Shown piece after piece: positions 1-11,346 of a DNA stretch of 15,056 nt; the first letter of the stretch is position 1; each line of letters opens with the position of its first letter. Source of the DNA: an uncultured Clostridia bacterium (lineage in GTDB: Bacteria > Bacillota > Clostridia > Saccharofermentanales > Saccharofermentanaceae); contig CAMNNN010000010.1 of assembly GCA_946545505.1 (NCBI GenBank), forward strand, positions 1 through 15,056, written 5' to 3'. The notes beneath the pieces are model-generated. The model was not told the DNA's origin. It saw only the letters and a list, made by a program, of their open reading frames with translations, and did not search any database. Both the position numbers and the translations under genes were made by a program.

Positions 1-1252
1 TAACGTAAGCTTCTTTGTCGATCGTGTTGCTGATCGTGATCGCGAAGATGAATGCGATAACTGCGATCAGAATGTAGCACAGGATGCTCGTTCCTGTTGA
101 GTCACCTCCAATATCGGAAGGAGCGAAATTGCTGGCCTGTCTCAAGTACTCCGGAAGGTAATCGTCAATCTCGTTGTCGTCTACGAGAGTCTGTGAGATC
201 AGGCTCTTAAGGAAGCTGTCGGAGAAATCGGCAGCCTCGACCTTGTCAGCGGGTTTGGTCTCATAGAAGAAAGCGTAGCTGTAGTGGGTTCTCGATGTCA
301 GTGCCTCAAAAGCGTCCGGGGTAAGCATCGCGACGTCAAAGCCGAATGCGTCGAACATCAGATCCGTGTTGGACTCGTGCAATGTCAGATAATTACAGTA
401 GGAAAGAAGACCCGTGATCTCATACTCGCGTCCGCCTACAGTGATCGTGTCACCGATAGTAACGCCGACGTTATCTGCGTGCATTCTGTCGATCGCGATC
501 TCCGAAGAAGTCTCAGGTGCACGTCCCTCGATGAAGGATGCCATATCGACTGTAGAGTCGCTTCTGAAGATCCTTACTGTGCCGTCTTCTTCGCCGTCGT
601 TATTGTGGTCCTCGGGCTCGTTGTGATAGAAGTTCGCGCAGATCGTTACGGGAACCGGAGTGAAGCCTTCATCGTTAAGATTGTATTCTTCCTCGATATC
701 GTCCCACTCTTCGTCTACAGCCTCGATTACTGTATCATGAGCCTCCGCATATGCCTCCTCCGAAGCCTCGATAAACTCATCCGAGTTACGTGCTTCTTCA
801 AGTGCATCCTCGAAGTTCTCTTCCATCGCAGTGTCGATCTGCGCCTGTATCATCTCTTCGTCCGTGATGCCGTAAGCCTCACACTGCTCGCGTACAGCAT
901 CTTCGATACCGGCAGCGACCTGATTGTTCAGTTCTTCCTCGATCGCATCGGCAACCTCGGCGTCAGCCTCTTCCATTCCTTCGTCGATAAAGTACTGACG
1001 CACGTCAGCCTTCTCGCCCGTGCTTAAGGCTGCCAGCAACTCGGGAGAAGCCTCATGCGAAAGCTCGAAAGAACCGTCTTCGAGATTCAGGTCGGTACGC
1101 CCCTTCTCTATGGAATAAAGCATGCTGTCATGGCCTACGTACATGCCGGAGATGACTCCGATCATGAGCACCATGAACAGGATTATTACCGCATACTTAT
1201 GCCAATCCGCCGCCAGCTCTTTTGGGATTCTCTTTACAAGAGGGTTTCTCAT
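1..1252 (-). CDS. FtsX/MacB-type ABC transporter permease, N-terminal part (runs off the window)
   Basis: The frame is open from the ATG at 1252 to the window edge, giving 417 codons with no stop, so the C-terminal part is missing. After a short basic cytoplasmic start there is one membrane segment (about residues 20-40, YAVIILFMVLMIGVISGMYV). A large extracytoplasmic domain of about 345 residues follows, then a second membrane segment at about 389-408 that begins the FtsX core (ILIAVIAFIFAITISNTI). This layout is that of FtsX/MacB-like permeases, which pair with an LolD/MacB-type ATPase and act mechanically on substrates outside the membrane. Residues 90-195 are extremely rich in Glu and Asp and look helical. 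Residues 215-220 read DHNNDG, an EF-hand-like DxNxDG metal-ligand pattern. The start follows GGGGGTGGA and lies 12 nt after the ATPase stop, so the two are co-transcribed. The substrate cannot be told from sequence. Confidence 0.9.
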   Translation of the reverse strand, partial: MRNPLVKRIPKELAADWHKYAVIILFMVLMIGVISGMYVGHDSMLYSIEKGRTDLNLEDGSFELSHEASPELLAALSTGEKADVRQYFIDEGMEEADAEVADAIEEELNNQVAAGIEDAVREQCEAYGITDEEMIQAQIDTAMEENFEDALEEARNSDEFIEASEEAYAEAHDTVIEAVDEEWDDIEEEYNLNDEGFTPVPVTICANFYHNEPEDHNNDGEEDGTVRIFRSDSTVDMASFIEGRAPETSSEIAIDRMHADNVGVTIGDTITVGGREYEITGLLSYCNYLTLHESNTDLMFDAFGFDVAMLTPDAFEALTSRTHYSYAFFYETKPADKVEAADFSDSFLKSLISQTLVDDNEIDDYLPEYLRQASNFAPSDIGGDSTGTSILCYILIAVIAFIFAITISNTIDKEAYV

Positions 1253-1264
1253 TATTCCACCCCC

Positions 1265-1972
1265 TTACCACTCGAGCTCGGAAGCCGGGATCTTCTTCTC
1301 GTTAATGTCGTTATGACGGACGACACCGTCTCTTAGTTTGACTACGTGATCAGCCATGTATTTGATGGCTTCGTTATGCGTAACCATGATGATGGTGGTT
1401 CCGTACTTCTGATTGCAGTCTTCTATCAGTGCAAGAATCTCCTTGCTGGTCTTGTAGTCGAGAGCTCCGGTAGGCTCGTCGCACATCAGGATATCGGGAT
1501 TCTTAACGACAGCTCTTCCGATGGATACTCTCTGCTGCTGTCCTCCAGACAGCTGATTGGGATACTTATACTTGTGGTCCTGAAGACCGAGAGTGGTCAA
1601 TACTTCTTCCACATCGAGCGGTTTGTCGGAAAGATATGCGCCGACCTCGATGTTCTCTTTAACATTCAGGTTAGGGATCAGGTTGTACATCTGGAAGACA
1701 TAACCGAGATGCTTCCTTCGATAAGTCGTAAGCTGCTTCTCGTCCATGTCTTCGAGCTTGTCTCCTGCTATGCTGACATAACCCGAATCCGGTGTGTCGA
1801 TACCCCCGATGATATTCAGAAGTGTCGACTTGCCTGAGCCTGACGGTCCGAGCAGTACGCAGAACTCGCCTTTTCCTACGGTGAAGTCCATGCCCCTCAG
1901 GACGTCCTGCCGCGCTTCGCCCGTGCCGAAGCTTTTCTTTAAGTCTTTGATTTCCAAGAAATTTTCTGCCAT
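1265..1972 (-). CDS. ABC transporter ATP-binding protein (LolD/MacB type)
   Basis: This 235-residue nucleotide-binding subunit powers the FtsX-type permease encoded just downstream. All motifs are intact: Walker A GPSGSGKS (42-49), Q-loop Gln94, signature LSGGQQQR (141-148), Walker B ILMCDEP (161-167) followed by TGALD, and switch His199. Length and motif wording (LLNIIGGID, GEPTGALD-like) are typical of the LolD/MacB/YknY group that works with four-TM FtsX permeases. I chose ATG 1972 (MAENFLEI) instead of an in-frame ATG seven codons upstream, because GGAAGGAGAG sits at ribosome-binding distance before 1972 and overlaps the alternative start. The gene is first in its operon and is preceded by a long structured leader that should control transcription elongation into it. 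Confidence 0.95.
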   Translation of the reverse strand: MAENFLEIKDLKKSFGTGEARQDVLRGMDFTVGKGEFCVLLGPSGSGKSTLLNIIGGIDTPDSGYVSIAGDKLEDMDEKQLTTYRRKHLGYVFQMYNLIPNLNVKENIEVGAYLSDKPLDVEEVLTTLGLQDHKYKYPNQLSGGQQQRVSIGRAVVKNPDILMCDEPTGALDYKTSKEILALIEDCNQKYGTTIIMVTHNEAIKYMADHVVKLRDGVVRHNDINEKKIPASELEW

Positions 1973-2022
1973 TTTTAACTCTCCTTCCGGCATTCGTTTT
2001 CTTGAATTCCCTGAATCTTTCC

Positions 2023-2061
2023 AAACAAAAGACCCAAGTACAGCCGAACTACACTTGGGTC
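2023..2061 (-). terminator. Regulated rho-independent terminator in the ABC operon leader
   Basis: On the minus strand GACCCAAGT (2061-2053) pairs perfectly with ACTTGGGTC (2039-2031). The stem continues inward as GTAG/CTGT around a TTCGG loop, for about 13 bp including G-U pairs. TTTTGTTT follows directly. It lies between the leader promoter and the ABC ATPase start, so it must be conditional; its 5' arm overlaps a 9-bp antiterminator partner (see the hairpin entry 2082-2109). Confidence 0.88.
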
Positions 2062-2094
2062 ATAAACATCAATATATAACATCATGTATAGTTC
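2046..2094 (-). promoter_or_regulatory. Antiterminator pairing in the riboswitch expression platform
   Basis: On the minus strand GAACTATAC (2094-2086) is complementary over 9 bp (one G-U) to GTGTAGTTC (2054-2046). The second segment is part of the terminator's 5' arm and loop. The first segment overlaps the 3' arm of the hairpin at 2082-2109. Terminator, antiterminator and P1-competing hairpin are therefore mutually exclusive, as expected for an ON switch. This is read from complementarity only; no energies were computed. Confidence 0.7.
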
Positions 2095-2109
2095 TTAAGC
2101 TATACATGA
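2082..2109 (-). promoter_or_regulatory. P1-competing hairpin (anti-antiterminator) of the riboswitch
   Basis: A perfect 10-bp inverted repeat, TCATGTATAG / CTATACATGA, with an 8-nt loop (CTTAAGAA on the minus strand). Its 5' arm shares CTCATG (2110-2105) with the 3' strand of aptamer helix P1. Its 3' arm holds the strand that could form the antiterminator. As DNA it could also be read as an operator, but its overlap with both P1 and the antiterminator favours an RNA role. Confidence 0.7.
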
Positions 2110-2187
2110 GTCTCGCGATTTAAAACAAGCCAGACGCTTGGTCAGGATGTTGACTTGCTACGCTTACGCGCTCGCTACTCCCCCATG
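2105..2187 (-). ncRNA. yybP-ykoY family (Mn2+) riboswitch aptamer
   Basis: The minus strand reads GGGGGAGTAGC (2184-2174), then a short CGC-GTAA-GCG hairpin, AAGTCAACAT (2155-2146), a CCA...TGG hairpin closed by GCAAG/CTTGT, and finally TCGCGAGAC (2118-2110 region). From memory of the family, GGGGAGUAGC near the 5' end, a purine-pyrimidine GUCA internal loop and G(C/A)(A/G)AGAC at the 3' end are the hallmarks of yybP-ykoY RNAs, which bind Mn2+ between the two loops. Helix P1 is supported independently: CATGGG (2187-2182) pairs with CTCATG (2110-2105), six pairs including one G-U. It lies about 10 nt after the predicted start of transcription and leads into the ABC exporter operon. A covariance-model search is needed for proof. 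Confidence 0.82.
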
Positions 2188-2201
2188 GGAATTACATACG
2201 G

Positions 2202-2230
2202 AATTTATCATATGTTCTCATTTTAGTCAA
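2202..2230 (-). promoter_or_regulatory. Promoter of the riboswitch-ABC exporter operon
   Basis: On the minus strand TTGACT (2230-2225) is followed after 17 bp by TAAATT (2207-2202). A transcript starting near 2195 would begin just before the riboswitch P1 helix, which is the expected spacing. The leader would be about 220 nt long. Confidence 0.7.
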
Positions 2231-2283: not shown

Positions 2284-3375
2284 ATGAATAATACGGTGAT
2301 TCGACAGGATACTATAAGTAAGACGTTTGGATTTCTCGTAAAGAACAGCTTCGCATTCACGGTCGGAGTCATGGGTCTTGTTCATGTCGGTCTGCTTATC
2401 TTTATGGCATATACCGGAGTACTCCCGCTGATGTTCTTTAACATATTAAGCGTAGTTGTTTACATTTTCTGCTTCATCCTGTGCAGATTCGGGCTTATCA
2501 TGCCGGCGTATGTAAGCATTATCCTGGAAGTTACGATATATACGGTATTATCCACGTACTATATCGGTCTGCGCTGCGGTACATACTGTTTCCTGTTCTC
2601 TATCGTTCCTATAATCATATACTTCGGAAGTTACCTGTTTAAGGGAAATAAGAGGGTCAGCGTGGCGATAATGCTGGTCCTGAACTTTGCCGTATTCATA
2701 GCGATGTACATCCGCTTCGGCAATACGGAGCCAATCTATGATATCGAGCCTTCGGCCAGACTGTTTATTGTAATCTATTCTTCATTTACCATGGTATTCT
2801 CGACAGTCTTCTATAACGCTATGTACATTTACATGAGTGAGCACGAGGTTAATATTCTCGAGGAACAGAACAGGCAGCTGTCGTCAGATGCTCATGAAGA
2901 TGCCTTGACGAGCCTTCTTAACAGAAGAGGCTTCCTGCCTATAGTGGATTCGCTGATGAAGAGTGAACGAACGAGTACTTTCAGCGTCGCATTCTGCGAT
3001 ATCGATAACTTCAAGCACATTAATGATACCTATGGCCATGAAGCCGGTGACGAAGTCCTGAAGCAGATCACTTTACTTATCCGTAAAGAGATGAACGGCT
3101 GTGATGTGTGCAGATGGGGAGGAGAAGAGATCGTCATCCTCATGAAGGGATTTGAACTGGATGAGGCACGTGACAGTATGGAACGCTTAAGGAAGAGCAT
3201 CGAGGTCAACCCGACATTCTTCTTTAACAATACGATCTTTGTCACTATAACTATCGGCGTCGCCCAGAATGACGGCAGCTTCTCAGGGCCCGAGGAAGTT
3301 ATCAAGACCGCTGACAAGAGGATGTATTACGGTAAGCAGCACGGCAAGAACATCGTGGTGTACGAAGACCATTAA
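2284..3375 (+). CDS. Membrane-bound diguanylate cyclase (GGDEF domain, GGEEI signature)
   Basis: It makes the second messenger cyclic di-GMP from two GTP. The 363-residue protein has about six hydrophobic segments (roughly residues 24-43, 48-68, 72-95, 99-117, 126-143, 159-184). A short coiled linker (186-202) leads to a C-terminal GGDEF domain starting at DALTSLLNRRGF (206-217). Metal-binding CDIDNFKHIND (238-248) and the active-site signature RWGGEE (277-282) are intact, so it should be catalytic. The position of the RxxD product-inhibition site holds NGCD (271-274), so the canonical I-site arginine is absent. The membrane sensor matches no family I can name. ATG 2284 is preferred (AAGGG at 2274-2278) over ATG 2233, which overlaps the promoter. 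It is a single-gene unit ending at a strong terminator. Confidence 0.9.
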   Translation: MNNTVIRQDTISKTFGFLVKNSFAFTVGVMGLVHVGLLIFMAYTGVLPLMFFNILSVVVYIFCFILCRFGLIMPAYVSIILEVTIYTVLSTYYIGLRCGTYCFLFSIVPIIIYFGSYLFKGNKRVSVAIMLVLNFAVFIAMYIRFGNTEPIYDIEPSARLFIVIYSSFTMVFSTVFYNAMYIYMSEHEVNILEEQNRQLSSDAHEDALTSLLNRRGFLPIVDSLMKSERTSTFSVAFCDIDNFKHINDTYGHEAGDEVLKQITLLIRKEMNGCDVCRWGGEEIVILMKGFELDEARDSMERLRKSIEVNPTFFFNNTIFVTITIGVAQNDGSFSGPEEVIKTADKRMYYGKQHGKNIVVYEDH

Positions 3376-4947: not shown

Positions 4948-5718
4948 TTATCTTATCGCGTCCTTCATGGACTTAACGTATTCGCCTACGTAAGGAGCAG
5001 CATCTCTTCCGTGCTGAGCGAGGATCTTGATAATTGCAGAACCTACGATAGCTCCGTCAGAGATGTCGGCCATCTTCTTTGCCTGTTCGGGAGTGGAGAT
5101 GCCGAAGCCGATCGCGACAGGAGTCTTAGTGTTCGCTCGGATGACTTCAACGATGGAACCGAGGTCGGTCTTTATCTCTGAGCGCACACCCGTAACCCCC
5201 AGGGAAGATACGAGGTATATGAAGCCCTCCGCTTCCTTGGCGATCATGGCAATGCGGTTCTCGGAGGTGGGTGCGATCAGCGAGATCAGGTTCACATCAT
5301 ACTGACGGCACAGGGGCAGGAATTCCTCCTTCTCCTCGAACGGAAGATCCGGCAGGATCAGACCGTCTATGCCTATCTCCTTACATGTGGAAATGAACTT
5401 CTCTGCACCGTAAGAGAAGACCACGTTCGCATATGTCATGAAGACCATCGGCACGGTCACATCTTCGCGCAGTCCGCGTACCAGATCGAATACTTTATCT
5501 GTTGTAACTCCGCCCTCAAGAGCGCGCAGGTTGGCGCCCTGGATTACGGGTCCTTCCGCAGTCGGATCCGAGAAGGGGATTCCGAGTTCCACCAGATCCG
5601 CGCCGTTCTTTACGGCTTCACGTACGACCTTTGCCGTCGTCTCGAGGTCAGGGTCGCCGCATGTGATGAATGGTATGAACGCCTTGCCGTTCTTAAAAGC
5701 TTCTGCGATCTTACTCAT
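4948..5718 (-). CDS. trpA: Tryptophan synthase alpha subunit
   Basis: It cleaves indole-3-glycerol phosphate to indole and glyceraldehyde-3-phosphate, and indole passes to TrpB through the alpha2-beta2 channel. The 256-residue TIM barrel begins MSKIAEAF. Catalytic Glu44 lies in [10 protein letters not shown] (Salmonella Glu49). The second catalytic acid, Asp60 in Salmonella, is a glutamate here (TAEGP, Glu55). Later family motifs are [25 protein letters not shown] and [13 protein letters not shown] chose ATG 5718, which overlaps the trpB stop by 8 nt and follows GGGGAGGA. A longer in-frame opening to 5844 lies inside trpB and has no family similarity. Last gene of the operon. No rho-independent terminator is visible after it, so read-through into the lipoprotein gene is possible. 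Confidence 0.97.
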
Positions 5719-6901
5719 GGATATCCTCCCCTCTGTAGCGGGCGATAGCCGCACAGTCCTTGTCGCCTCTTCCCGAGATCGTGATGACAATGATCTTGTC
5801 CTTATCCATAGTGGGGGCAAGCTTCCTTGCATATGCCACGGCATGCGCAGACTCGATGGCGGGGATGATGCCTTCGGTCTTTGCCAGATACTCGAAAGCC
5901 TGTACCGCTTCCTCGTCAGTTACGGGAACATATTCCGCTCTTCCGATGTCATGCAGGTATGCGTGCTCGGGACCGACTCCGGGGTAATCGAGACCTGCGG
6001 AGATCGAGTATACGGGAGCTATCTGGCCGTACTCGTCCTGACAGAAATAGGACTTCATTCCGTGGAATATCCCGACTCTTCCCGTGTTGACCGTGGCCGC
6101 TGTCTCGAAGGTGTCGATGCCTCTTCCGGCAGCCTCGCAGCCGATAAGTCTTACGTCCTTGTCATCGATGAAATTATAGAAAGTTCCGATGGCATTGGAG
6201 CCTCCGCCCACGCACGCAATAACTGCGTCGGGCAGTCTGCCTTCCTTCTGCAGCATCTGCTCCTTAATCTCCTTGGAGATGACGGCCTGGAAGTCTCTTA
6301 CGATAGTAGGGAAGGGGTGAGGTCCCATGACGGAACCCAAGCAGTAATGCGTGTCGGAGATCCTTGAAGTCCACTCTCTCATTGCCTCGGAAACTGCATC
6401 TTTCAGCGTGCGGGTTCCGGACTTAACCGGGATTACTTCCGCGCCGAGAAGCCTCATGCGGTACACGTTCAGTGCCTGCCTTATAGTGTCCTCTTCACCC
6501 ATGAAGACCACACACTCCATACCGAAAAGTGCCGCTGCGGTAGCTGTGGCAACTCCGTGCTGTCCCGCGCCGGTCTCGGCAATAAGACGAGTCTTGCCCA
6601 TCTTCTTGGCGAGCAGTGCCTGCCCGAGTACGTTATTGATCTTGTGCGCACCTGTGTGGTTGAGATCCTCGCGCTTAAGATAGATCTTGGCGCCGCCCAG
6701 GTCCTTGGTCATCTTCTCGGCGTAGTAAAGCCTTGAAGGCCTTCCTGCGTACTCGTTAAAGAGCTCAGTAAGTTCCGCCTGAAACTCCGGATCGTTCTTA
6801 TACTTGTTGTATGCTTCCTCGAGCTCAATGACGGCGTTCATCAGCGTCTCGGGGATATACTGCCCGCCGTGTATGCCGAAGCGTCCGTTGGGATTAGTCA
6901 T
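5711..6901 (-). CDS. trpB: Tryptophan synthase beta subunit
   Basis: PLP enzyme that condenses indole with L-serine to form L-tryptophan. The 396 residues have the normal length of the TrpB1 type that pairs with TrpA. The Schiff-base lysine is Lys87 in HTGAHKINN. Glu109 in AETGAGQHG is the catalytic acid, and [10 protein letters not shown] forms the PLP phosphate loop. The C-terminal [10 protein letters not shown] is also typical. The N-terminal [15 protein letters not shown] marks a TrpB1 rather than a TrpB2. The start overlaps the trpF stop by 8 nt and the end overlaps trpA by 8 nt, which implies translational coupling and balanced production of the two subunits. Confidence 0.98.
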
Positions 6902-7508
6902 GGTTGTCTTCCTTTCTGACAGCGCTTATAAAAGCCGCCATCTTTGCATTATCTTTTATGCCTCCGGTCTCTACTCCCGAGCTTACGTCGACTGCATAAG
7001 GATGAAGGTTCCTTACCGCCTCAGCCGCATTTCCGGGGTGAAGGCCGCCTGCAAGAAAATAAGGTCTCTCTATATTCTTCAACAGGTTCCAGTCGAAAGT
7101 GACTCCGCCGCCCATTCCGGCATCAAGGAGAACATAGTCAGCGGGGCTTTCTTCCGCTTGTGTGAATCCGCCGGCGGTATCCGCCCGGAAAGCTTTTATG
7201 ACAGGCTTTCCTGTGCATGCCTGCAGACTTCGTATGTATGCTTCGTCCTCGTGACCGTGAAGCTGGGCGATGTCGATTATACCATCATTAAGAAGAGCCT
7301 TAACAACTTCTATGTCTTCGTCTACAAACACGCCCGCGGCTTTGACGGAAGGATCGAGCTGAGCCTTAAGTGCCGCGGCCTTCTCACGGGTAACGGCGCG
7401 CTTGGATTTGGTCCAGAATACGAAGCCTATATAATCAGGCTTCAATTCATTAGCCGCTTCGATATCCTCAATGCGTGTCAGTCCGCAGAACTTAACCTTG
7501 GTCATCAT
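6894..7508 (-). CDS. trpF: Phosphoribosylanthranilate isomerase
   Basis: It isomerises N-(5'-phosphoribosyl)anthranilate to CdRP, the third step from chorismate. A 204-residue TIM barrel with KFCGLTR carrying the catalytic Cys8, QLHGHED (82-88), LLDA with the catalytic Asp129, [17 protein letters not shown] and VDVSSGVE. Two adjacent ATG codons (7508 and 7505) are possible. The first gives an ATGA overlap with trpC; the second has better spacing to AGGAG. The protein differs by one residue only. It is a separate gene here, not fused to trpC as in enterics. Confidence 0.96.
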
Positions 7509-8284
7509 ACACTCCTGAAAGATCTGAGCATCTGTTTCTTGTCAGCTGCTCTCATAAGCGCCTCGCCTACGAGCACTGCATCCACACCTGCTTTCTTAAG
7601 CAAAGCGACATCGGATGCGTCTTTAACTCCGCTCTCGGAAACAAATATCACGTCATCTCCCACGAGCTCCTTAAGCCTCATGCTGTTGCCGGTGTCGACC
7701 GAGAAATCCTTGAGGTTTCTGTTGTTGACTCCTATGATCCGTGCGCCTGCTTCAAGTGCAGTTTTTACTTCAGCTTCATCGTGTGCTTCGACCAGTGCTG
7801 ACAGCCCGAGCTCATCACAGATGCCGATGTACCCGCGGATCTGTTCCATGCCCAAGATAGAGCAGATGAGAAGGACTGCGGAAGCCCCCAGAATCTTGGC
7901 CTCGTAGATCATGTATTCATCTACCGTGAAGTCCTTCCTTATGCAGGGAGTGCTTACGGCGGAAGTAATCTCCTTAAGGTACTCATCGCTTCCCAGGAAC
8001 CACTTGGGCTCAGTGAGGACCGAGATGCAGTCTGCTCCCGCTTCCTCGTATTCCTTCGCGATCTGAAGGTAAGGAAAATCCTCGGCGATAATGCCCTTGG
8101 ACGGGGATGCCTTCTTGCACTCGCATATGAACGAGAGGCCCTCCCGGCGGAGTGCTTTCTCGAAAGGAAAGTCTCCCTTGGGCAATGCCTGTGCCTCGGC
8201 TCTGACCTGCTCTAACGGTCTTATGCTTTTCGAGGCGGCAACGCGCTCGCGTGCGTGTTCTGCAAGCTGATCGAGGATCGTCAT
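7505..8284 (-). CDS. trpC: Indole-3-glycerol-phosphate synthase
   Basis: It closes the indole ring by decarboxylating CdRP to indole-3-glycerol phosphate. A 259-residue, stand-alone TIM barrel. Family motifs are [13 protein letters not shown] (52-64) with the conserved Glu and Lys, [26 protein letters not shown] with the catalytic lysine, [13 protein letters not shown], and VSESGV near the C-terminus. The ATG overlaps the trpD stop as ATGA, and the stop overlaps the trpF start in the same way, so translation should pass directly from gene to gene. Confidence 0.97.
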
Positions 8285-9312
8285 GCCTCTGCCTCCGGAC
8301 GGTTGCTGACTTCGATCATCTTCTGCAGTGTCTCGTATGCCTTGCCGGAGTCGAGGATCTCACCTGCAAGCTTAACGCCTTCTGCAAATGAGTCTGCCTT
8401 GCCGCCGATGTAGAGGGAAGCACCTGCGTTCAGGAGAACTGCGTCTCTCTTAGGTCCCTTAGCACCCTTGAGAATGTCGATAGTGATCTGAGCGTTCTGC
8501 TCGGGATCGCCGCCCTTGAGGTCATCCTTGGTGCAGCGTGTAAGGCCGAAGTCCTCGGGAGTTATTGTGTATGTCTTGTACCAGCCGTCACGGATCTCGC
8601 TTATCCTTGTGGGAGCGCTCATAGAGATTTCATCAAGCTTGTCTGTGCCGTAAACTACCATGCCGCGCTTAACGCCGAGGCTGACAAGAACCTGTGACAA
8701 AGGCTCAACGAGGTACTCGTCATAGACTCCGAGGAGCTGCATTGAAGGCTTGCCGGGGTTGGTGAGGGGGCCGAGGATGTTAAACACCGTACGGAAGCCG
8801 AGCTCCTTACGGATGGGTCCGACATACTTCATGGAGGTGTGATACTTCTGTGCGAAGAAGAAGCACATGCCGGCCTCGTTCAGCATCTCTATGCAGCGCG
8901 CGGGGCTCTGGTTGATGTTTACTCCCAGGGCCTCGAGGCAGTCTGCCGTGCCGCACTTGGAAGATGCCGCGCGGTTACCGTGCTTAGCTACCTTCATGCC
9001 GCCTGCAGCAGCCACGATCGCGGAAGTGGTGGAGATGTTGAAGCTGTGTGCGTTGTCTCCGCCCGTGCCTACGATCTCGAAGATGTCCATGCCTGTCTCT
9101 ACGGGGATGGCGTGGTCTCTCATTGCCGCAGCGCAGCCGGCGATCTCATCTCTTGTCTCAGCCCTCGCACTCTTGGTGGAAAGAGCTGCGAGGAATGCCG
9201 CATTCTGCGTGGGAGTTGTCTCTCCGTTCATGATCTCGTTCATGACGGTAAATGCCTCGTCATATGTGAGATCTTCCTTGTTTACGATCTTTACGATTGC
9301 TTCCTTGATCAT
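8281..9312 (-). CDS. trpD: Anthranilate phosphoribosyltransferase
   Basis: It transfers phosphoribose from PRPP to anthranilate, the second step of the pathway. A 343-residue protein, normal length. An all-helical N-terminal region is followed by the PRPP loop VGTGGD (81-86) and the family signature [12 protein letters not shown] (110-121) ending [27 protein letters not shown] and the DE pair in KLDEIS contribute to metal binding in the family. It is separate from trpG, unlike the enteric fusion. AAGGAGG overlaps the trpG stop, and the ATG lies 4 nt after that stop, the only non-overlapping junction inside the operon. Confidence 0.98.
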
Positions 9313-9316
9313 TGTC

Positions 9317-9883
9317 TTATGCCTCCTTAATGAAATTCATTAACATCTTTTTCCCGTCTGGTGTCATTATCGATTCCGGGTGAAACTGCACTCCGTAAAT
9401 CTTATATTCTCTGTGCTGCACCGCCATGACTTCTCCGTCTTCGGTGAGTGCTGTGACCATGAGCTCTTCCGGGATTGTCTCGGGGTCTGCCGCGAGCGAA
9501 TGATACCTTGCCACCTTGCCGAGAGGGATGCCGTCGAAGAGTTTGCATCTGCCGTCGAATCTTACCACCGATTGCTTGCCGTGCATGAGTTCCTTCGCGT
9601 ATGTGATAGTGGCTCCGAATGCCGCACAGATCGCCTGGTGACCGAGGCACACGCCGAGGATGGGAAAGTCTTTGCCGAGCTGCTTCACCACATCGATTAT
9701 TACGCCGGCGTCCTCAGGTCTTCCGGGTCCGGGTGAGAGGATGATCCGGTCGGGGTTCAATGCCCTGATCTCGTCCACCGTGAGTTCGTCATTGCGGATG
9801 ACTCTGATGTCGGGGTCTATCGCGCCGATGAGCTGATAAAGGTTATAAGAAAAACTGTCGTAATTATCTATGAGCAGGATCAT
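9317..9883 (-). CDS. trpG: Anthranilate synthase glutamine amidotransferase subunit
   Basis: It hydrolyses glutamine and feeds ammonia to TrpE for anthranilate synthesis. A 188-residue class I amidotransferase with the catalytic triad visible: Cys79 in GVCLGHQ, His168 and Glu170 in QFHPES. The oxyanion segment [11 protein letters not shown] (50-60) and the N-terminal [13 protein letters not shown] are typical of TrpG/PabA. Since the two cannot be separated by sequence alone, a shared role in folate (pabA) synthesis is possible; position next to trpE supports TrpG. The ATG overlaps the trpE stop as ATGA. Confidence 0.96.
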
Positions 9884-11346
9884 AATTCATCCTCCTGTGC
9901 AAGCTCGAGTGCCTTAAGTGATGCTCTTGCTTTGTTGAGGCACTCCTGGTATTCCTTCCCGGGGTCGGAGTCAGCGACGATTCCTGCGCCGGATCTGACG
10001 AAGACCTTGCCGTTCTTCTTGAATACGAGTCTTATGGCGATACATGTGTCCATGTTTCCGGTAAAGTCGATGTAGCCTATGGCACCTCCGTAGATGCCGC
10101 GCTTGTTATTCTCGAGTTCTCCTATAAGCTGGCATGCTCTTATCTTGGGTGCTCCGGAGAGGGTGCCTGCAGGGAGGACTGCCTCGATCGCATCGAAGGC
10201 GTCATGGTCTTCCGTGATCTCCCCCCTTACCGTGGATCCTATGTGCATGACATGTGAAAACCTCTCAATGGTGTGGAGCTTCTCTATTTCCACGGAACCG
10301 AATTTGCTTATCTTTCCCAGGTCGTTTCTTCCCAGATCCACGAGCATATTGTGCTCGGCAAGCTCTTTCTCATCCTGAAGGAGCTCCTCCTCGAGTGCCT
10401 TGTCTTCCTCAGGTGTCTTTCCCCTGGGTCTTGTGCCTGCGAGAGGGAAAGTATGAAGAACACCGTCCTGAAGCTTAACGAGCGTCTCGGGGGAAGCGCC
10501 TGCGACCTCAACGTCCGTGCCGGAGAAATAGAACATGTAAGGCGACGGGTTGATAGTTCTCAGCACTCTGTATGTGTTGAGCAGGCTGCCTTCAAAAGGC
10601 GCGGAAAGCCTGTTGGAAAGAACTATCTGGAAGATGTCGCCTTCCTTAATGTGGTGCTTGCCCTTCTCGACCATTTCGCAGAATGCTTCCTTGCCGAAGA
10701 GGGGGGTGACCTCGCCCTTGAGCCTGCCGCCTTTCTCCTCGATCTTACTGCCGTTATGCAGAAGGTTTACGAGTCCCTTTAAGGTCTCAACAGCTCTTCT
10801 GTAGCCGTCCTCGCCCTCATTGAGCTTCATGTTCTCGATGATGATTATCTTCTGCTTTAAGTTGTCGAAGGCGATTACCTTGTCGAAGAGCATGAGGTCA
10901 ACATCCTTGAAGCCCTCCTCGTCTTCAACGTCACACTTTGCCGTGGGTTCGCTGTAAGTTAAGTAGTCGTATGAGAAGTAACCTACGAGGCCGCCTGCGA
11001 AGGGAGGGAGGTAGTCGAACCTGGGGCTTTTGTAGCCGCTCATGATTCTTCTTAACTCGGCGGAAGGATCATTTGTCTTTATCTTCTCATCGCCGATCTC
11101 AAGGATCCCGTCCTTACAGGTGATGAGTTCTCTGGGGTTAAATCCCAGAAATGTATATCTTCCCCATGTCTCGTTCGCCTGTGCCGACTCGAGCATATAG
11201 ACATGGTCTGAAGCATTCTTCAGAATCTTTAATGCCTCGATCGGAGTAGTGAAGTCGGATAAGATCTCTACGCTTATAGGAAGCACATCGTACTTGCCTT
11301 CTGCTGCGATCTTCATGGCCTCTTCCAGAGTGGGTCTGATCTGCAT
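9880..11346 (-). CDS. trpE: Anthranilate synthase component I
   Basis: First committed enzyme: chorismate plus ammonia to anthranilate and pyruvate, with TrpG. The 488 residues hold an N-terminal allosteric domain with MLESAQANETWGRYTFLG, where the LES motif forms the tryptophan feedback pocket in the family. The chorismate-binding domain follows: ASPETLV, AGTRPRGKTPEED, LVDLGRNDLGK, FSHVMHIGSTVRG, LPAGTLSGAPKIRA, YGGAIGYIDF and GAGIVADSDP. The intact LES motif suggests normal feedback inhibition by tryptophan. The ATG follows AAAGGAGGACAAAACAA, a strong ribosome binding site, 30 nt after the T-box terminator U-tract. First gene of the operon. Confidence 0.98.
   Translation of the reverse strand: MQIRPTLEEAMKIAAEGKYDVLPISVEILSDFTTPIEALKILKNASDHVYMLESAQANETWGRYTFLGFNPRELITCKDGILEIGDEKIKTNDPSAELRRIMSGYKSPRFDYLPPFAGGLVGYFSYDYLTYSEPTAKCDVEDEEGFKDVDLMLFDKVIAFDNLKQKIIIIENMKLNEGEDGYRRAVETLKGLVNLLHNGSKIEEKGGRLKGEVTPLFGKEAFCEMVEKGKHHIKEGDIFQIVLSNRLSAPFEGSLLNTYRVLRTINPSPYMFYFSGTDVEVAGASPETLVKLQDGVLHTFPLAGTRPRGKTPEEDKALEEELLQDEKELAEHNMLVDLGRNDLGKISKFGSVEIEKLHTIERFSHVMHIGSTVRGEITEDHDAFDAIEAVLPAGTLSGAPKIRACQLIGELENNKRGIYGGAIGYIDFTGNMDTCIAIRLVFKKNGKVFVRSGAGIVADSDPGKEYQECLNKARASLKALELAQEDEL

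Follow-up and report, generated by a model that had tools for sequence, protein, structure and literature searches.

The stretch of DNA that we analysed (15,056 nucleotides from an uncultured Clostridia bacterium, hereafter the window) raises the question of whether an RNA leader of the Mn2+ (yybP-ykoY) riboswitch type controls an FtsX/MacB-type ABC operon, and what such a transporter would do for the cell. The source is a draft genome of 1.57 Mb that is 70% complete. On the minus strand, profile matches identified a LolD/MacB-type ABC ATPase of 235 amino acids (1265..1972, ATG at 1972), and profile matches together with relatives identified the N-terminal 417 amino acids of an FtsX/MacB-type permease (2..1252). 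The permease is truncated because the window begins at the contig end; close relatives are about 900 amino acids long. The leader lies on the minus strand between the ATPase gene and a divergent diguanylate cyclase gene (plus strand, start near 2284, end at 3375). Control of the diguanylate cyclase by the leader was ruled out, because the aptamer and the terminator sit on the opposite strand. A match to the consensus points to a putative promoter at 2202..2230 of the minus strand (TTGACT-17-TAAATT, with TG ahead of the second hexamer); it looks sigma-70-like and, since it ends at 2202, the transcript would be expected to start near 2195, just ahead of helix P1.1. The sequence GGAAGGAG at 1981..1988 (minus strand) is a likely ribosome binding site. 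Elsewhere, 4948-11346 of the minus strand was read by eye as a tryptophan biosynthesis cluster, with a gene order that we take to be trpE-G-D-C-F-B-A.

The aptamer occupies 2105..2187 of the minus strand and consists of P1.1, P1.2, P2 and P3, as judged from our covariance model R1 (described below), RF00080 and covariation. The earlier note had read the family signatures GGGGAGUAGC at 2183-2174 and GCGAGAC at 2116-2110 together with a 6-bp P1, and all of these coordinates were confirmed on the minus strand. Sequence and leader alignment agree that the two signatures are the 5' strand (2174..2183) and the 3' strand (2110..2116) of L1, and the L1 core of Mn2+ riboswitches, GGGGAGUAG...GCGAGAC, is present in the leader. 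P1.1, the switch helix, pairs 2187-2182 with 2110-2105 in six base pairs, one of them G-U; both its 5' strand (2182..2187) and its 3' strand (2105..2110) are supported by covariation, and 2109-2105 are common to P1.1 and the anti-antiterminator hairpin downstream. Comparison of R1 hits places L3, UCAACAU, at 2147..2153 (minus strand), including A2148. In solved structures Mn2+ is contacted through the N7 of an invariant adenosine, A48 in X. oryzae (excerpts of PMC6754395) and A41 in L. lactis (excerpts of PMC9190785); going by the residue names and order given there, A2148 is probably the counterpart of this adenosine. A UUUAAA linker takes the place of P4, the third helix in the Rfam consensus, giving a three-way junction, and both P4 and the four-way junction of the yybP-ykoY family are absent from the aptamer in the window. 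A three-way junction is also described for S. pneumoniae mgtA in the portions of PMC9495176 available to us, and P4 is thus not universal in the family.

The predicted structure was supported by folding and by comparison. The 196-base leader folded better than all 200 of 200 dinucleotide shuffles (z -5.2). When 31 leaders, the window's among them, were aligned, 98.4% of the cells at aptamer pairs were paired and 9 of 22 pairs showed double-sided changes; none of 500 shuffles scored as high on either measure, and slid alignments were at most 51% paired. The alignment backs P1.1, P1.2, P2 and P3, as well as the inner part of P3.

The Rfam library recognised this RNA poorly. The whole window gave no match at gathering cut-offs, and the Infernal match to RF00080 that the earlier note proposed as a check failed: a permissive scan placed RF00080 on 2201-2090 with 15.0 bits (E 0.035) against a cut-off of 45. 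The same scan gave bglG 22.4 bits, more than RF00080 at a weaker E-value (0.076; cut-off 80), and we rejected a bglG-type attenuator, the downstream gene being not bglG-like. Matches to mir-6128, PhrS, CRISPR-DR17 and STnc540 were at chance level. None of ten related loci, four of them with the leader, matched RF00080 at its cut-off. Among 391 genomes of the class, 30 had sub-threshold RF00080 matches and none had a match at the gathering cut-off, including the genomes with MntP-linked hits. The gathering cut-off is a library threshold and no property of the RNA itself. Clostridial Mn2+ riboswitches appear to escape the Rfam model, and since its cut-off passes 0 of the 391 sampled Clostridia, Mn2+ regulons in these bacteria are undercounted.

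We therefore relied on R1, a covariance model built from the 31 aligned leaders. The window is one seed row, and seed leaders match by construction, as does the window at 2096-2193 (109.9 bits). Relatives of the permease formed two collections, the first being the best 80 of 120 loci found and the second comprising 30 loci; the two overlap in some assemblies (L002 and L031, for example), and the locus counts are not additive. Hosts in the first collection were mostly labelled Clostridiales, Saccharofermentans, Ruminococcaceae, Oscillospiraceae, Lachnospiraceae or Butyrivibrio, many of them from ruminants. A motif search found the signature pair about 930 bases ahead of the permease in many relatives. 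The expectation that the leader is kept ahead of orthologous ABC operons held in part: R1 found it in the window and in 27 of the best 80 of 120 loci (L097 and L106 each had a second copy), whereas 53 of the 80 were without it, at least three of these (L072, L078, L095) lacking the upstream DNA on the contig. In the second collection 19 of 30 loci had the leader (weakest match, E 0.05). More widely, R1 matched 55 of the 115 family genomes and 109 of the 391 class genomes. Of 30 fetched sub-threshold RF00080 loci, 18 were R1 hits at the identical place, and therefore both models describe one family. The comparison of sequences makes a strong case that the leader is a divergent clostridial member of the yybP-ykoY (Mn2+) family; the identity claimed in the earlier note stands on family homology (overlap of R1 and RF00080, and covariation), but the leader falls below the Rfam threshold and is without P4. 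One locus, L238 of genome G146, has two tandem R1-type aptamers (101-207 and 244-346) with 36 bases between them, ahead of a P-type cation ATPase gene.

The genes behind the riboswitch were classified for 154 distinct R1 hits, of which 152 had a called downstream gene. First genes were called automatically as longest ORFs, and BLAST linkage defined their groups; the second copies L294, L229b and L197b were removed, and 32 of the weakest hits in the class (about 44 bits and below) stood outside this classification. The 152 first genes comprised 80 MntP-like genes, 37 LolD-type ABC ATPases, 28 P-type ATPases, 3 Ca/Na antiporters and 4 others. NCBIfam was run on six representatives: four were MntP-like with 80-139 bits, under the equivalog cut-off of 214, one P-type ATPase was above the cut-off of TIGR01494, a general model, and one antiporter was above that of TIGR00367. 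Of the genes behind the 30 RF00080 loci, 8 grouped with MntP, 12 with P-type ATPases, 2 with the antiporter and 8 with none of these; no ABC gene of the window's type was among them. Fifteen genomes carried one R1 copy before an ABC and one before MntP (G004, G005, G007, G021, G027, G068, G070, G081, G092, G100, G101, G105, G108, G113 and G114).

Behind the hits L211, L255, L291 and L252 the next gene was no known transporter; by eye, these genes were one SPFH-type, two TetR-type and one ferredoxin/ASKHA-like. Nine loci of genus g20 (L265, L138, L140, L257, L260, L261, L263, L264 and L266), and likewise L097:8037-9410 and L106:8016-9389, encode proteins of about 454-466 amino acids with an MntP-like start. 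In L265 a single chain behind the riboswitch matches the NCBIfam MntP model at residues 15-200 and a ZupT-like ZIP model at 223-462; judged by these matches, the protein is a predicted MntP-ZIP fusion joining an exporter-type to a ZIP-type domain. L097 and L106 each have a second riboswitch behind the ABC operon, together with an MntP-motif gene that clusters with ZIP proteins.

Downstream of the aptamer, the minus strand holds an expression platform of three elements. A hairpin of ten perfect base pairs (2109-2100 with 2091-2082; feature 2082..2109), found paired in 22 leaders, acts as the putative anti-antiterminator. The antiterminator joins strand 1 (2086..2094) to strand 2 (2046..2054, in the 5' arm and loop of the terminator) in 9 bp, one of them G-U, with both strands supported by covariation. 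An intrinsic terminator stem-loop at 2031..2061, followed by a U-rich stretch, was supported by covariation and by a terminator scan of 1950-2330, which returned three terminator-like sites against a shuffle mean of 0.3. The length of the antiterminator in the window is by itself within chance, as 9 bp or more arose in 23% of 5000 shuffles; it is supported because it covaries across leaders, not by its length. A stem, a T-rich tail and a complementary strand able to pair over 7 to 12 bp were present in all 30 of 30 leaders, and in at least 6 of the 30 (L035-L037, L039, L040, L074) this strand differs from the one named in the earlier note.

Covariation of the platform was measured on 22 of the 30 leaders, with near-copies and MntP-linked second copies excluded and with some rows stopping inside the terminator. 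In the antiterminator 95.3% of the cells were paired, with double-sided changes in 5 of 9 pairs and at most 46% pairing in slid alignments; clear examples are L082, with GUCAUA opposite UAUGAC, and L102, with AAGCUAUA opposite UAUGGCUU. The terminator was paired in 96.0% of the cells (double-sided changes in 7 of 13 pairs), and the hairpin in 99.0%, with little variation. The earlier note's layout was recovered here: a perfect hairpin at 2082-2109 that has 2109-2105 in common with P1.1, a 9-bp antiterminator in competition with both hairpin and terminator, and an arrangement consistent with an ON switch.

We infer a transcriptional ON polarity because P1.1 and the hairpin share a strand, in agreement with L. 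lactis, where, according to the available parts of PMC11087558 and PMC9190785, formation of P1.1 opposes the terminator. At low Mn2+, the 3' strand of P1.1 (2110-2105) would pair into the downstream hairpin (2109-2082); the hairpin would then hide the antiterminator strand, the terminator (2061-2031) would form and transcription would stop ahead of the ABC genes. When Mn2+ docks L1 onto L3, P1.1 would be held and the hairpin deprived of its 5' arm, and the freed 2094-2086 could pair with 2054-2046, break the terminator and allow the ABC genes to be transcribed. The ligand-free energies leave the switch direction unsettled: the unconstrained fold (-63.4 kcal/mol) contained the antiterminator and not the terminator, but among the constrained states the one with the terminator (-60.3 kcal/mol) was much lower than the one with aptamer plus antiterminator (-46.7 kcal/mol). 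A review calls Mn2+ riboswitches OFF switches (PMC11477304, in the sections available), contrary to PMC9190785 and PMC11087558.

The best NCBIfam models for the ATPase were DarD, DevA, MacB, YbbA, a bacteriocin exporter and LolD; none of the 25 models listed was above its own cut-off, and the ATPase therefore belongs to no named subfamily. It is LolD/MacB-like, as is the ATPase of a type VII ABC system. PF02687 (FtsX; cut-off 25.5) matched two stretches in each of the L031 permease (62.8 bits) and the L042 permease (67.0 bits); the domain was not seen in the window's 417-residue piece, which ends about where it begins. PF12704 (MacB periplasmic core) scored 21.8-24.9 bits against a cut-off of 27. 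A search for the permease family found 7092 proteins at E 0.001 or better of 7997 scored, with no functional name among the best 120 of the 7092, and a profile search gave no hit to a solved relative. An ectodomain loop of the DxNxDGxxD type (strict pattern), which may bind metal, occurs in 35 of 41 aligned permeases, and the 127 residues ahead of it in L031 include 43 acidic and 4 basic ones. More distant permeases in the comparison did not show this loop pattern.

The leaders also precede permeases that are 26-43% identical to the L031 permease over the longest aligned segment. These belong to other groups in the window's genus and to L198 and L205 of a second family, and the link between riboswitch and ABC therefore spans more than one orthologous group. 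L198 and L205 were the two ABC-linked hits in another family; otherwise the hits examined fell mostly in the window's genus, and among them the link appears to be mostly a feature of that genus. A divergent leader with the L3 form UCGUCA and a terminator-like end was seen in L014, L015, L016 and L023 (leaders located at about 230-400) and in L292. In L014-L016 and L023 it is followed, by eye, by a promoter-like TTGAC...TATAAT or similar, with a GTTAG...CTAAC palindrome inside the promoter spacer; double control of a related ABC is possible there.

What the ABC does was approached through its neighbours, by unbiased clustering of the genes around the best 80 of 120 permease loci. After the ABC itself, metal genes ranked top: of these 80 loci, 28 had a member of a cluster of FeoB, P-type ATPase and FeoA pieces, 12 a DtxR-type repressor, 12 an HMA protein, 11 ZIP, 10 DUF3793, 9 DUF6110 and 7 Fur. 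FeoB and P-type ATPases fell into one cluster, which we split by motif, and nine short 'P-type' pieces include FeoA/FeoB ends. Pfam confirmed ten of the neighbour genes. A P-type ATPase lies directly ahead of the ABC in L045, L047, L049 and L050. FeoB-labelled genes occurred in 16 of the best 80 of 120 loci against about 1% expected, the expectation resting on about 125 FeoB_N matches above 140 bits in 59 other genomes of the class (about 1 per hundred 11-kb stretches) and not on the 80 loci's own genomes. The metal-handling role suggested in the earlier note thereby gains independent support from metal genes beside leader-less orthologues.

The neighbours were distributed unevenly. Metal genes adjoined 6 of 25 leader-bearing loci with a full permease, versus 30 of 52 leader-less ones. 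This speaks against a simple link between leader and metal neighbours, and we read the pattern as an exchange of regulators: the leader and DtxR-/Fur-type regulators may replace one another, with the leader doing in some genomes the job that they do elsewhere. On a tree of 77 permeases, in which contigs ending before the leader were scored as leader-less, the leader state changed 11 times, at least 10 of the changes being forced by well-supported branches. One orthologue that is 89% identical (L033:4130-4230) has no riboswitch; its promoter region shows a palindrome, TGAACA...TGTTCA, and feoB and a DtxR-type gene lie nearby.

Taken together, these data make it quite likely that a divergent clostridial subgroup of Mn2+ riboswitches controls a two-gene type VII ABC, which probably defends the cell against Mn excess or Mn/Fe imbalance. 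RNA homology and conservation, the covariation of aptamer, antiterminator and terminator, the riboswitch class in common with MntP, and the metal genes beside orthologues are computed results. We infer Mn2+ as the ligand. That the ABC is an effector of metal homeostasis or metal stress is well motivated: leader-less orthologues often stand beside feoB, dtxR, fur, zip, HMA and P-type ATPase genes, and therefore the ABC is probably a metal effector. Its site of action would be the membrane or cell surface, where it would counter excess manganese or a Mn/Fe imbalance caused by manganese; MntP would belong to the same regulon as another branch.

The alternative that survives best, though we think it unlikely, is that a genuine riboswitch merely induces, under metal stress, a general exporter for envelope stress or drugs that has no metal-related substrate. 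FtsX/MacB-type systems such as BceAB, MacB and YknXYZ handle peptides and drugs (PMC5985334, as excerpted), and in L033 a possible palindromic operator, read by eye, replaces the leader. However, metal genes recur beside the orthologues: four loci (L060, L083, L085, L094) have a co-directional DtxR gene immediately upstream, and four (L033, L078, L093, L094) have ZIP immediately downstream. HrtAB, of the same superfamily, is tied to haem protection in the same excerpts.

It is more doubtful still that a drifted aptamer now senses another divalent ion (Fe2+, Ca2+ or Co2+/Ni2+) and that the ABC answers to that ion instead of Mn2+. In favour of this, the base two past the key L3 adenosine (2146 in the window) is C in 26 of 37 ABC leaders and A in 72 of 80 MntP leaders; iron genes adjoin orthologous ABC loci, a 2020 review expects yybP variants with altered metal specificity (PMC7266159, as excerpted), and Ca2+ binding by the S. 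pneumoniae mgtA aptamer is reported in the available portions of PMC9495176. Yet C also prevails in the leaders of P-type ATPases (20 of 28), the type to which the Mn2+-controlled YoaB of L. lactis belongs (excerpts of PMC11477304 and PMC9190785), and position 2146 is possibly a tuning position. The key adenosine itself is conserved in 149 of 152 distinct R1 hits (exceptions L234, L245 and L292), the L1 core is nearly invariant across them, and the 15 genomes listed above also have this riboswitch class before MntP. A chance resemblance, or an unrelated attenuator of, for instance, the bglG antiterminator type, for which the missing Rfam match at cut-off and the higher bglG bit score in the permissive scan might speak, is scarcely credible as an account of the leader and is already contradicted by the comparative data, namely the conserved, covarying core, the co-located RF00080 matches, the cation-exporter-type genes behind 111 of 115 non-ABC hits, and a bglG score far under its cut-off before a gene that is not bglG-like.

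Beyond the reading of a Mn2+ riboswitch that controls a metal-defence ABC, we offer tentatively, and with less than even confidence, a larger one: large two-unit FtsX-type ABCs may serve rumen and gut Clostridia as machinery dedicated to defence against transition metals (Mn/Fe). Some lineages would control it with Mn2+ riboswitches and others apparently with DtxR-/Fur-type regulators, and in the window's subgroup it would act from outside the membrane through its acidic, EF-hand-like ectodomain. Effectors of metal homeostasis would then gain a new mechanistic class. The riboswitch link suggests what a large ABC permease family may do, and a simple cue, Mn2+, makes the suggestion testable; should the ABC protect against metals, metal homeostasis would involve type VII systems beyond the haem case of HrtAB.

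We compared the locus with the systems known to us. The earlier note had held an FtsX/MacB-type target to be unusual for this riboswitch family, and we too found none in the literature searched, whose scope did not extend to the 2015 papers that defined the ligand; the accessible sections of PMC5955585, PMC4342826 and PMC11477304 name no ABC target. With the yybP-ykoY family (RF00080) the leader has in common the L1/L3 core, the P1.1 switch helix, the key adenosine, the placement before exporter genes and a terminator-type platform; it differs in scoring 15 bits against 45, in the absence of P4, in its LolD-FtsX operon target and in the extra hairpin between P1.1 and the terminator. As for YbbA-YbbP/BceAB type VII ABC systems, we know of no metal regulation, whereas the window system has a Mn2+-type riboswitch leader. 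The two are alike in a LolD/MacB-like ATPase and a permease of two FtsX-type units (PMC5985334, as excerpted). In the L. lactis yoaB riboswitch, too, a stable P1.1 keeps the terminator from forming and so turns transcription ON (PMC11087558 and PMC9190785), as we propose for the window's leader. There the 3' strand of P1.1 runs straight into the terminator and the target is a P-type ATPase, whereas in the window the signal would pass through a hairpin and a separate antiterminator to an ABC operon. HrtAB was compared by likeness only, no Hrt model being among the 25 of 191 families listed for the window ATPase. HrtB is a short single-unit permease; the window family's permease, by comparison, has about 900 amino acids, two FtsX matches, an acidic ectodomain insert and Mn2+-type riboswitch control. 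Both systems nonetheless pair an ATPase with an FtsX/MacB-type permease, and HrtAB, according to PMC5985334, is linked to the protection of Gram-positive bacteria from a metal compound.
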